The translations under genes were made by a program, and so were the position numbers. From Methanolobus sp. (lineage in GTDB: Archaea; Halobacteriota; Methanosarcinia; Methanosarcinales; Methanosarcinaceae): a DNA stretch of 64,000 nt. Under the pieces are notes generated by a model. The model worked only from the letters and a program-made list of their open reading frames with translations, ran no database searches and was not told where the DNA came from. The stretch covers positions 62,001 through 126,000 of the forward strand of contig NZ_JADQBZ010000004.1 in assembly GCF_016278365.1 (NCBI RefSeq). Reading direction: 5' to 3'. Shown piece by piece: positions 43,897 through 47,052 of this stretch (the stretch's first letter is position 1; every line of letters begins with the position of its first letter).

Positions 43897-44022
43897 AATC
43901 CCTCGCAGTCATAATTACTTTTATAAGTTAAATGTTTCTCAATAGCAACGATGAGTCATTTTTACTATGGCTCATTTGAACATCTGTTTAAGGCCGCCAA
44001 TACAGACTTGTTTTTTGACGTC

Positions 44023-44046
44023 TATTTGGTTTACTAAGCCAAATAT
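44023..44046. promoter_or_regulatory. 24-bp palindrome, copy 1
   Basis: TATTTGG-N10-CCAAATA (plus one T) with further symmetry inside. It is nearly the same as copy 2, 8 bp downstream. Two such boxes in tandem resemble an operator for a dimeric regulator. The adjoining genes are relics, so its target is unclear. Confidence 0.5.
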
Positions 44047-44054
44047 AATCAGTT

Positions 44055-44078
44055 TATTTGGCCTATTAGACCAAATAT
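44055..44078. promoter_or_regulatory. 24-bp palindrome, copy 2
   Basis: Same outer arms as copy 1 (TATTTGG and CCAAATA). The spacer differs at four positions, in the main with matched pairs (TT/AA changed to CC/GA), so the inner symmetry is largely kept. A further half-site, ATGGCCAAAT, occurs at 44107-44116 just before the flpA relic. Confidence 0.5.
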
Positions 44079-44116
44079 GCTTATTAATCTTGTTTTATGC
44101 CTACATATGGCCAAAT

Positions 44117-44243
44117 AGTATCGACACCATCGCTAATCCAAAGAAGATTCAAGGGCAAGGTCAGCAAACCGGGAAGCGGCTTTGGGATGGTATTCTAGGT
44201 ATTCAAAAGGAAAAAGCTTGGTGTGTTCCACGAGGATAGAATT
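44117..44243 (+). pseudogene. Relic of a fibrillarin (flpA) 3' end
   Basis: Codon by codon this stretch follows the flpA segment 43381-43506. SIDTIANPKK matches SIDTVASPKR. After a one-base loss, KGKV and SGFG align with EEVQ and TGFD, and an in-frame TAG follows. KRKKLGVFHED then aligns with QRKELEPFHED. It is clearly divergent from the resident gene and only the tail is present. Either an old tandem duplicate or a foreign copy has decayed here. Confidence 0.7.
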
Positions 44244-44391
44244 ATATCTCAAAAGATTGATGTGTTGTAGATGCTTTTGCCATCTCCTTTTCCAATTTAT
44301 CGATTGCATCTTCACAAGTTTCCGGCACTTGCTTCAGAGGATTTACTGAATGAGTTAGACTAAGCAACTGGTCTGATATGAACACCAGCAT
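44242..44391 (-). CDS. Possible 49-aa small protein
   Basis: Reading leftward from ATG 44391: MLVFISDQLLSLTHSVNPLK, a helical middle, and the end STTHQSFEI. The composition looks protein-like, but there is no SD and no recognised family. It may be a fragment of a larger gene in this decayed zone. Confidence 0.25.
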   Translation of the reverse strand: MLVFISDQLLSLTHSVNPLKQVPETCEDAIDKLEKEMAKASTTHQSFEI

Positions 44392-44392
44392 A

Positions 44393-44428
44393 TGAAAAAA
44401 AGAAAACTATAATAAAAAAGAAAAAGTA
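44393..44428 (-). terminator. Oligo-T terminator of the actin-like operon
   Basis: Downstream of the minus-strand stop at 44439, the transcript strand carries several runs of 4-7 T (44393-44428) with no hairpin. This is the usual archaeal intrinsic terminator form. Confidence 0.55.
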
Positions 44429-44438
44429 AAGAGAGGAA

Positions 44439-45491
44439 TTAAGCTGTGACTGCCTTTTGAGGCTTTTCCTCTGCAGCAGGAACAGCTTCTGCATCTTCTC
44501 TTGTAAGGGCTGCGATCAGGCATCCTCTTGCAATTGAATAGATCGGGTCCTTAGAATCAGCTGTGGTAGACCTGTTCCTTTTGACTTTCGAGACATTTAT
44601 GGGGAGGTTCGCTTCTGATATCCTCTTTTCGAATACGTCCAGGAATCCCCTTGCACGGCTGCTGCCACCTGCGACGGCTATTGGGAATTCGACATCTGGG
44701 GGTGCTACTTCCAGGAGTTTCTTCTTCAGGTTGGCAATGATGTAAGTTATCAGGGCGTCATAATAGAGAGCGAGTGCACCCTGGATGCTTCCGATCTCAT
44801 AGTCGGAGTTGAACGAGAAGTCGGTTTCCTTAATTGCCGTTACTCTCTCGTTAGGTACGCCTGTGGCGCTGGAGACCTGTTCGTCTATCCAATCCCCACC
44901 TCTTGCAATACTGAATGAGACTATTGGAGTTGCAAGATAAGCGACAGTAATGTTTGTCATACCTGCGCCCACACTTATACCGATACCTGTGAAGTTGAAG
45001 TCGCCGAGTTCCGAGAACACAACAGCCAATCCCTCATCTATCAGGTTTGTCTGGTAACCCACTCTCTTTGCCAGGGCTTCAACGGTTTTGCTGTGATACA
45101 GGACATTGACTTTGCTGTCAACAGGACTTGCAGGGACTGAGATATAAACGATCTCTCCTTCCTTCTCAGGCTTACCTAGCACTCTTTCAATGATCAGTTT
45201 GATCATCGGTATGGACTCTTTCTCATCGGGACTGATGATGCCCTGTTTCATCGGTCTTCTGATGGGCTTGTTGAATACGTTCGAAAACTTAAAAGCATCT
45301 TCACCAAGCACGTTGATGGTCTCATCCTTCTGCGTGTAAAGTATCTTGGCGCTGTCCAGCATGTTTTGTGCCAAGTCGCCAGCTTCCATTTTCAAAAATG
45401 CGTTCCTCTGTTGTGCAAATGTAATGGAATCGCCCTTTCCTTTCTCTGCACAGATAATGTTCATTGTTCCGACGTCCAATCCTTTTGCCAT
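44439..45491 (-). CDS. Actin/MreB-like ATPase
   Basis: A 350-aa actin-superfamily protein. Phosphate-1 loop GLDVGTMNII (residues 4-13), phosphate-2 loop GIGISVGAGMTNITV, and adenosine motif PIAVAGGSSRARGF are in the right order. It is neither a classical MreB nor ParM by motif; it resembles archaeal MreB-like proteins such as haloarchaeal volactin. The tail is acidic and Ala-rich. It follows a membrane-protein gene by 2 bp, so the pair is probably one operon and may form a membrane-linked cytoskeletal filament. Confidence 0.85.
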   Translation of the reverse strand: MAKGLDVGTMNIICAEKGKGDSITFAQQRNAFLKMEAGDLAQNMLDSAKILYTQKDETINVLGEDAFKFSNVFNKPIRRPMKQGIISPDEKESIPMIKLIIERVLGKPEKEGEIVYISVPASPVDSKVNVLYHSKTVEALAKRVGYQTNLIDEGLAVVFSELGDFNFTGIGISVGAGMTNITVAYLATPIVSFSIARGGDWIDEQVSSATGVPNERVTAIKETDFSFNSDYEIGSIQGALALYYDALITYIIANLKKKLLEVAPPDVEFPIAVAGGSSRARGFLDVFEKRISEANLPINVSKVKRNRSTTADSKDPIYSIARGCLIAALTREDAEAVPAAEEKPQKAVTA

Positions 45492-45493
45492 AT

Positions 45494-46279
45494 TTACCGC
45501 CTCATAGAGTTCAATTTCATCTTAAGTTTGTTTGACATCTTCTTGTTCTGTTCTTCTGTCTGCTGCTTCATTGTTGCACTCAGCATTTTCGTTGTCAGAT
45601 CGATAGCATAATCGTTCACTTTGACCTTTCCATTGATGGCGCTTTGCAGGGATTCAACTTCTCTGATACTATCTTTTATCTCAATTCTGTCCTGCGGTGA
45701 TTCTTTCAGAGTTTTCCCATGGACAAAAACCGTTTCATCTTCTTTTATATCCAGATTAAATGCAGAAAACCGGCTGCCATCGGAAAAGGATTTGTTTAAA
45801 GTCTCTTCAACTTCTTTCTCAATATCCTCTGTCGTGTAATGGCAGGCTGCATTTTCATGCAATTGCACAGAACGTTCTTCAATAAGCTTTAGCACTGCGT
45901 TCCCAAATGCATTTCCTGAAAGCAAACAGATACCAGAAGCATATGCAAAAGACACATAGCTGACAGTTGGATATACCCAGTTGCTTGTATAGGTCATCGC
46001 AAAGGAACCTACTCCAATAATCGAGAACAGAAAACCGGTTATCATGACCCCGCTGCTGTAAAGACCGTAAGGCCTGCGCTGGCTCATCATGAGGTTTATT
46101 CCAAAGAGTGTGAAGGAAAGCCCAACACCCAGAAAGCCATAAGTGGTGATTATTTCCGAGGGATCAGATGTTCTCCTGAGATGAACCATAATAGCAAACG
46201 CTATTGCACCTATAGATAAAATGAGGCCTGATAGGAATACCATTGACCCAAAATAGTATCTAAATTTAGATTCCATCAC
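45494..46279 (-). CDS. Polytopic membrane protein paired with the actin-like ATPase
   Basis: 261 aa. Four or five membrane helices fill residues about 8-145 (MVFLSGLILSIGAIAFAIMV; YGFLGVGLSFTLFGINLMM; SGVMITGFLFSIIGVGSFAM; SYVSFAYASGICLLSGNAFG). A charged cytosolic tail of about 110 residues ends very basic (NKKMSNKLKMKLNSMRR). Domain family not firmly recognised. The 2-bp gap to the actin-like gene suggests the tail binds or anchors the filament. Confidence 0.75.
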   Translation of the reverse strand: MMESKFRYYFGSMVFLSGLILSIGAIAFAIMVHLRRTSDPSEIITTYGFLGVGLSFTLFGINLMMSQRRPYGLYSSGVMITGFLFSIIGVGSFAMTYTSNWVYPTVSYVSFAYASGICLLSGNAFGNAVLKLIEERSVQLHENAACHYTTEDIEKEVEETLNKSFSDGSRFSAFNLDIKEDETVFVHGKTLKESPQDRIEIKDSIREVESLQSAINGKVKVNDYAIDLTTKMLSATMKQQTEEQNKKMSNKLKMKLNSMRR

Positions 46280-46444
46280 TATTATTAAATATTATGTTTA
46301 ATATATAGGTTGCGCTATTATTATAAATATTATATAATTAAATACATATATATAAAAGTTATATATAAAAGTCTACTAGAGATATTCAAAAAACACTATA
46401 TGCTTTTTATCACGCACGATACTGATTCAACAAATTTGCGTTTC

Positions 46445-46639
46445 TTAGTGACCCGTTTGTGGGTGTGCTTTGACTCTTAGAAACTCCAGAATTGTATCTC
46501 CTCTCTTCTGGAACTCGTAGCTCACCTTCTCTTCACTGATCTGGTATTCTTTATCAAAAACATGGTCAACAACTTCATCAACATACAGTGAACACCTTGA
46601 GTTCAGGCCAATTAATGGATATATTATTATAGACTCCAT
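46445..46639 (-). CDS. Small protein, possibly a gene remnant
   Basis: A 64-aa frame (MESIIIYPLIGLNSRCSLYV start, FLRVKAHPQTGH end) of unknown function. The strong GGAGGT SD upstream (46653-46658) actually serves ATG 46649, which overlaps the previous stop (ATGA) but runs in a different frame and stops after 23 codons. So the gene may have suffered a frameshift near 46610-46640. It belongs to the same decayed cluster as the lipoprotein remnant. Confidence 0.4.
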   Translation of the reverse strand: MESIIIYPLIGLNSRCSLYVDEVVDHVFDKEYQISEEKVSYEFQKRGDTILEFLRVKAHPQTGH

Positions 46640-46645
46640 TGAGTA

Positions 46646-47031
46646 TCATGTCAGCACCTCCGGAAATCTGGTTATTCTCCATTCCTCTTCCTGTTTAACC
46701 AGTTCTATCTGTTTTGTAGTTTGTTCTATTTTTGGCGAAATTTCTAGAATGTTTCCCGCGAGAACTCGAGACTTACTGTGGATTCGTTGACCCGAATATC
46801 GACCAGCGCAGCATCCTGGTCAACGTATTCTTTTGTGACCTCGATGAACTCGTACTTGTCAGGGTTCACATTCTTACATGTGCTTACGAATGCTGCAAGG
46901 TCAGTGTTTTCTTTATAAGTGTATGACATGAAGCCATAGCGTGTATCGTAATTCCCTTTCTTAAACTCGGAAGCAAACTTCTCTACTGTCCCTGAAGGGT
47001 TGTTCCCAACACCAAAACACCCGGCAGTCAT
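46646..47031 (-). pseudogene. Broken lipoprotein gene
   Basis: The frame from 47031 starts at what should be a lipobox (MTAGCFG): the hydrophobic signal peptide that belongs in front is missing, with a stop just upstream. The body (NPSGTVEKFASEFKKGNYDT onward) resembles small secreted DUF4878-type proteins. At about 46744 the frame stops; a one-base shift continues LEISPKIEQTTKQIELVKQE and ends at 46646 with FPEVLT. It is thus both 5'-truncated and frameshifted. The 5' loss coincides with the edge of the IS1-like relic. Confidence 0.65.
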
Positions 47032-47052
47032 AATGACCGCTTATTTTTAAAT

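Follow-up and report, generated by a model that had tools for sequence, protein, structure and literature searches.

A volactin gene co-inherited with a DUF7139-family membrane protein, a candidate filament anchor, in Methanolobus and other Halobacteriota

Volactin is one of the few archaeal actins to have been observed acting in living cells. In Haloferax volcanii (VolA, HVO_2015), excerpts of PMC10869688 describe dynamic filaments in vivo that reach the membrane by their tips, a behavior for which the authors invoke unknown binding factors. In the same excerpts, the filaments were not seen lengthwise on the membrane, which argues against lateral anchoring. A contribution to cell shape, and an involvement in the tissue-like state of compressed cells, are described in parts of PMC10869688 and PMC7617734. 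Excerpts of the open PMC papers on volactin, PMC10869688 included, name no membrane partner, and none of the open PMC papers searched mentions DUF7139, HVO_2016, HVO_2014, or HVO_2017.

Salactin (PF25229), like volactin, is an archaeal actin that has been imaged as a dynamically unstable polymer. It nevertheless constitutes a separate family, listed apart from Volactin by Pfam: against the Salactin profile, two salactins reach 308 and 586 bits, and only 25 bits against that of Volactin. Excerpts of PMC10746226 have its authors reporting poor synteny, whereas volactins have a clear and conserved neighbor. At one salactin locus (L185, 1380-3856), the genes directly after salactin encode a coiled-coil protein and an ATPase of the ParA/MinD type, not DUF7139, an arrangement that fits the published role of salactin in DNA partition.

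The linkage of an actin-fold filament to a membrane protein recalls MreB and RodZ, and MreB is among the best structural matches of volactin. RodZ is a single-pass protein with a helix-turn-helix domain, whereas the membrane protein considered here is predicted to have four membrane helices and is without that domain. In the PilM-PilN and FtsA-FtsN systems, judging by the entry titles, an actin-like protein binds a short peptide from the cytoplasmic part of a membrane protein, and the volactin model has both 5eou and 7q6i among its structural matches; the peptide is N-terminal there (again by entry titles), whereas here the motif would lie inside the C-terminal tail. The arcadins that partner crenactin are soluble proteins. 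Excerpts of PMC7613921 describe them as encoded near this archaeal actin, and the likeness extends that far, but volactin is paired here with a membrane protein.

The window, by which we mean the whole stretch of 64,000 nucleotides of Methanolobus sp. DNA that was analyzed, carries an actin gene beside a gene for a membrane protein at a distance of 2 bp, just as the original prediction had it. Both lie on the minus strand, with the membrane protein (46279-45494) preceding the actin (45491-44439) and 2 bp between the stop codon of the former and the ATG of the latter:

44439..45491, minus strand: volactin-family actin of 350 aa (open reading frame; PF25216; residues conserved with 29 other volactins)
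45494..46279, minus strand: DUF7139-family membrane protein of the volactin-linked type, predicted four-helix (open reading frame; PF23600; profile A2)
45497..45503, minus strand: Shine-Dalgarno-like GAGGCGG within the final codons of the membrane-protein gene, shortly 5' of the volactin ATG (read directly)

The reading frame of the membrane protein is listed with a GTG at 46279, giving 261 aa, and an ATG follows directly at 46276. As this ATG corresponds to the ATG start of the Methanolobus profundi homolog, a start at 46276 and a length of 260 aa are likelier. The Shine-Dalgarno-like site reads AGGAGA in M. profundi and AGGAGGT in M. vulcani, and the occurrence of such a sequence inside the end of the membrane-protein gene at several Methanolobus loci suggests that translation of volactin is likely coupled to that of the membrane protein. 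Whereas the Methanolobus pair forms a tight bicistron, the gap at haloarchaeal loci is mostly 80-170 bp, and several of these loci have a TATA-like TTTATAAT or similar box ~30 bp 5' of the volactin ATG, so that volactin there probably has a promoter of its own.

The original prediction had an actin homolog and set it beside the MreB-like volactin of haloarchaea. An actin it is, but more than MreB-like: its identity is that of volactin proper, the Pfam family (PF25216) to which the Haloferax volcanii protein also belongs: it scores 382.6 bits (cut-off 35) over positions 1-321 of the 321 in the Volactin profile, compared with only 33.4 bits for MreB_Mbl, and is a full-length volactin. It falls under the NCBIfam cut-offs for MreB (30.5 versus 365.75 bits for TIGR00904 and 29.7 versus 293 bits for NF010539) and for MamK (26.1 versus 400 bits for NF040964), and gives no match to Salactin at E 0.1. 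Its named relatives are from Methanolobus, with 95% identity to a Methanolobus MAG. MreB carries an N-terminal membrane helix; volactins start straight at the first strand (MAKGLDVGT), leaving no room for a helix of that type. Residues 262-598 of the M. profundi model form an actin fold, which matches MamK with Z 26.5 (rmsd 3.1 over 296 aligned residues), with BeeR (Z 26.4) and MreB (Z 24.8) as further PDB matches. MamK is nearest both by structure and by PDB profile search, in agreement with the placement of salactin near MamK in excerpts of PMC10746226.

The membrane protein passes the cut-off of DUF7139 (PF23600) barely, at 31.7 bits against 30. All 46 homologs in our alignment (A4) match the family at E 0.01, with that of M. 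profundi slightly under the cut-off at 29.8 bits, and both PF23600 and PF25216 find matches in the Haloferax volcanii control genome, at family level. Profile A2, built from 29 DUF7139 proteins of the volactin type (27 linked to volactin, two unlinked), scores 307.5 bits in the genome from which the window comes. Within the protein, the following parts may be distinguished:

45872..46258, minus strand: membrane domain, approximately residues 8-136; modeled as four helices in the M. profundi homolog, and common to DUF7139 paralogs
45782..45838, minus strand: tail motif 1, approximately residues 148-166, acidic amphipathic helix YTTEDIEKEVEETLNKSFS (conservation)
45629..45694, minus strand: tail motif 2, approximately residues 196-217, QDRIEIKDSIREVESLQSAING, proposed volactin-docking segment (conservation; fused model)
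45554..45607, minus strand: tail motif 3, approximately residues 225-242 (conservation; profile of motifs 2 and 3)
45497..45544, minus strand: basic C-terminal segment (charge of the last 25 residues)

That the protein is polytopic, as had been proposed, is supported by the AlphaFold2 model of the M. profundi homolog alone (46 rows; mean pLDDT 74.7, no strands), in which four long helices occupy the N-terminal 141 residues (2-31, 39-64, 71-99, and 104-141), most block means lying at pLDDT 74-96. In the window protein itself, three of the four are recovered by a simple hydropathy scan with a threshold of 1.35. The even number of helices, and a tail suited to a cytoplasmic actin, imply that both termini would be cytoplasmic. 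None of the 687 Foldseek matches of the membrane domain reaches E 0.001; the best, at E 0.1, are four-helix proteins that include IncA and LTC4 synthase, and we do not assign it to a known fold. The membrane protein has no significant PDB match; its top profile match there, to a LysM protein (E 0.089), we treated as a chance hit.

The tail is indeed long, but the expectation that it would be basic holds only for its last ~25 residues, the net charge of which averages +3.2 across the 46 homologs and is positive in 40 of them, whereas the remainder averages -8.3 (-19 in haloarchaea). Conservation is concentrated in the three motifs, at 1.8-2.2 bits per column compared with 1.6-2.1 for the membrane helices, and is weaker in residues 167-195 and at the C terminus (1.2-1.3). 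Motif 1, at 2.18 bits per column, is comparable with the membrane helices and is weak in Archaeoglobaceae; L211 of motif 2 and L233 of motif 3 are invariant in all 46 proteins.

When the M. profundi protein is modeled by itself, most of the tail between residues 168 and 203 has pLDDT values below 50. Since the gap between the two M. profundi genes is an in-frame 3 bp, the pair could be read through the stop codon as a single chain of 617 residues, and this was modeled from an alignment (A3) with 21 fused rows among 55, the chains being joined by two residues and some haloarchaeal tail ends being slightly misaligned; pLDDT and DSSP served as the read-out. With volactin joined, the mean pLDDT rises from 46 to 68 for residues 181-190, from 44 to 79 for 191-200, from 53 to 85 for 201-210, and from 51 to 65 for 211-220. 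Two elements absent from the protein alone appear, a strand over residues 198-202 and a helix over 207-216 (pLDDT 79 and 85), together with a short bridge at 186-187. Confidence falls elsewhere, from 76 to 52 in the motif 1 block 151-160 and from 74-76 to 41-51 in the C-terminal helix blocks 231-260. As DSSP strands need a partner, and the protein alone offers none, pairing of motif 2 with volactin would be the simplest reading of the new strand. Carried out in this fused form, the co-folding of actin and tail that was proposed at the outset as a check gives a predicted interaction, and we consider direct docking of the tail on volactin to be likely.

Taken as a whole, the two genes are probably a cassette of volactin and a dedicated, volactin-docking membrane anchor or receptor. 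Its four helices would hold the receptor in the membrane and leave both termini cytoplasmic, and its flexible and mostly acidic tail of ~120 residues would bear the short docking motif at approximately residues 196-217. On binding, this motif would add a strand and a short helix to a volactin subunit. A number of such receptors could then tether, and perhaps nucleate or stabilize, the ends of filaments at the membrane, and the cassette may have a role in cell shape. Confidence differs between the parts of this proposal: a dedicated functional partnership of volactin and the DUF7139 protein is very probable indeed, whereas the role of tip anchor is one that we favor by a modest degree. The dedicated membrane anchor of the original prediction has thus been upheld as a dedicated partner, through co-inheritance and the predicted interaction; that it anchors, rather than nucleates or regulates, is what we infer. 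The partner is new, but membrane-tethered actin-like filaments are a known kind.

The strongest competing explanation casts the membrane protein as a dedicated regulator or sensor, whose membrane domain senses the state of the membrane or a ligand and whose tail nucleates, caps, or disassembles volactin. Excerpts of PMC10869688 have dynamic instability and patches requiring binding factors, three conserved tail motifs exceed the needs of simple tethering, and the best conserved stretch of the whole protein, at 2.57 bits, is a W-YP segment at the junction of helices 3 and 4. However, domain scans of the membrane protein reveal no sensor or enzymatic domain, and we regard regulation in place of anchoring as unlikely; the two are in any case compatible rather than exclusive.

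Much less probable is that the two proteins serve a shared process without touching one another, for example in surface-layer or lipid work, and owe their co-inheritance to this. Co-occurrence by itself does indicate functional linkage and not binding, but the ordering of one tail motif only when volactin is joined, as predicted by the fused model, speaks for contact. So does the distribution of the motifs. Across 11 proteins of the volactin type (seven linked and four unlinked), a profile of motifs 2 and 3 gives 17-65 bits, with 64.7 bits for the window protein, and it scores below zero or finds no match in all 15 paralogs of the selected test set, itself a subset of the paralogs (CHAD fusions, DUF7140 type, and repeat type), which have the membrane domain alone in common (49-70 bits). 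By this profile, motifs 2 and 3 are specific to the volactin-linked type of DUF7139. Moreover, no third gene was found traveling with the pair, either in the 80 named loci described below or in those of Methanolobus.

A survey of co-conservation, also proposed at the outset, finds the genes linked well beyond the window. A sample of 294 Halobacteriota genomes was searched with Pfam Volactin, Pfam DUF7139, and profile A2. Pfam Volactin has a match at E 0.001 in 77 genomes, 69 of them over its cut-off, and Pfam DUF7139 in 94; profile A2 at 1e-10 has one in 95, of which 68 score 189-313 bits and all others at most 89 bits. The 68 genomes with volactin-type DUF7139 are identical to the 68 with intact volactin (Fisher p 1e-66, ancestry not corrected for). 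In 59 of the 68, DUF7139 lies directly upstream of volactin on the same strand; the other nine, eight of which belong to genus g53, keep both genes unlinked. The 69th volactin genome (G156:C75:129-701; L089) has a volactin in pieces, with in-frame stops and apparently decaying. No DUF7139 was found in it, but the volactin lies at a contig edge beyond which DUF7139 may have been cut off; joint decay was therefore rejected as a reading, and the genome was left out of the evidence.

Because profile A2 includes rows from sampled genomes, the test was repeated on 148 genomes of the haloarchaeal family f24, which contributes only three A2 rows (at least 16 of these genomes overlap with the phylum sample). 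Volactin is present in 66 and DUF7139 in 67, and 147 of the 148 agree, the sole disagreement being a draft genome in 180 contigs (G441) with DUF7139 and without volactin. The pair is linked in 44 of the 66, four of them with gaps of 307-1706 bp, and not adjacent in 22, of which 21 are from g53.

Among the best 80 of 277 named volactin loci, three are cut by contig ends. DUF7139 lies directly upstream, within 226 bp, in 73 of the 77 that can be evaluated, and upstream at 862 and 1700 bp in two more; one (L147) has it downstream only, as a weak match of 126 bits, and one (L162) has none within 6 kb. With a presence in 76 of these best 80 loci, DUF7139 is the sole resolved neighbor to span haloarchaeal and other loci. 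Membership of other neighbors in the cassette was rejected. Two further spanning clusters consist wholly of minus-strand open reading frames: one is antisense over volactin, and the other, with 158 frames in 41 loci, was left unassigned. The pairing of the two genes is far beyond chance. Although the cassette is indeed present in a methanogen, it is not peculiar to one: its range takes in Methanosarcinales, ANME-1, Archaeoglobi, and Halobacteria, and eight of the 80 named loci are from MAGs with the NCBI label 'Thermoplasmatota'. A viral origin was also considered and rejected, the cassette being without a relative in viral_contigs.

Of the 27 Methanolobus genomes, 10 carry both genes and 17 carry neither, most of the latter retaining a longer DUF7139 paralog. 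On a tree of fibrillarin DNA from 26 of the 27 (G014, with a fragment only, was left out), presence changes for both genes at once, at least five times on supported branches and seven times on the best tree; the count covers gain and loss alike, without telling direction apart. That the genes adjoin by chance, or as an operon of convenience, might seem to be suggested by the separation of the genes throughout g53 (21 of 21 volactin genomes), but presence still matches there bar one draft genome, and the 68 of 68 co-occurrence already refutes this explanation, to which the five or more independent changes within one genus leave next to no probability.

The pair makes up the sole open reading frame families common to the loci of nine volactin-bearing Methanolobus genomes. 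Three of these (G000, G006, and G023) have one setting in common and three (G008, G013, and G016) another, unrelated one, and the remaining three (G004, G005, and G022, the last with only 7.6 kb) have no common neighbors at the thresholds used. In a near relative (G288), the flanks are kept and window positions 43942-46646 are without a counterpart. The joint changes, the sharing of the pair alone, and this empty site identify a two-gene block of roughly 2 kb as the unit that is gained or lost.

Other features were observed around the cassette. Decayed 3' ends of fibrillarin lie downstream of the fibrillarin gene in the window (44105-44243) and in relatives (L219, 3970-4081; L227, 2566-2630), and lie beside the volactin cassette in G006; the site looks like an integration or recombination hotspot. 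Upstream of the cassette, two short minus-strand open reading frames (46445-47031) resemble one broken gene, with a weak match to MecA_N (E 0.044, under the cut-off), and positions 46646-47040 are conserved at 89% in the cassette-less G288.

Both families also occur in other architectures. Several haloarchaea have a second volactin in which the actin domain is followed by 380-870 residues matching many coiled-coil families (L074, 2902-6429; L076, 3001-6564; L077, 3001-5136; L078, 3001-5328; also L097-L100), so that actin and long coiled coil form one fusion protein. In Methanosarcinaceae, Methanolobus included, a DUF7139 paralog is fused to a CHAD domain (L086, 3004-4827; L085, 1582-3387), apparently the same membrane base with a different cytoplasmic module. 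Haloarchaeal proteins of ~950-1000 aa join the DUF7139 membrane domain to a row of ~70-residue repeats (L091, 559-3465; L096, 2887-5844), which we take to resemble DUF1508.

For the piece that fastens volactin filaments to the membrane, the DUF7139 protein of the volactin type is so far the best candidate, and with a near-perfectly co-inherited membrane protein and a short candidate docking motif, the question of how volactin relates to the membrane becomes a testable one. A broader reading, which we put forward tentatively, would make DUF7139 the tip anchor of volactin across the Halobacteriota and the first identified membrane anchor of an archaeal actin, as well as a modular base that bears, according to lineage, a volactin-docking tail, a CHAD domain, DUF7140, or DUF1508-like repeats. 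If this is true, the archaeal actins would split into two systems: volactin with DUF7139, for membrane-tethered cell shape, and salactin with a coiled-coil protein and a ParA-like ATPase, for the partition of DNA.
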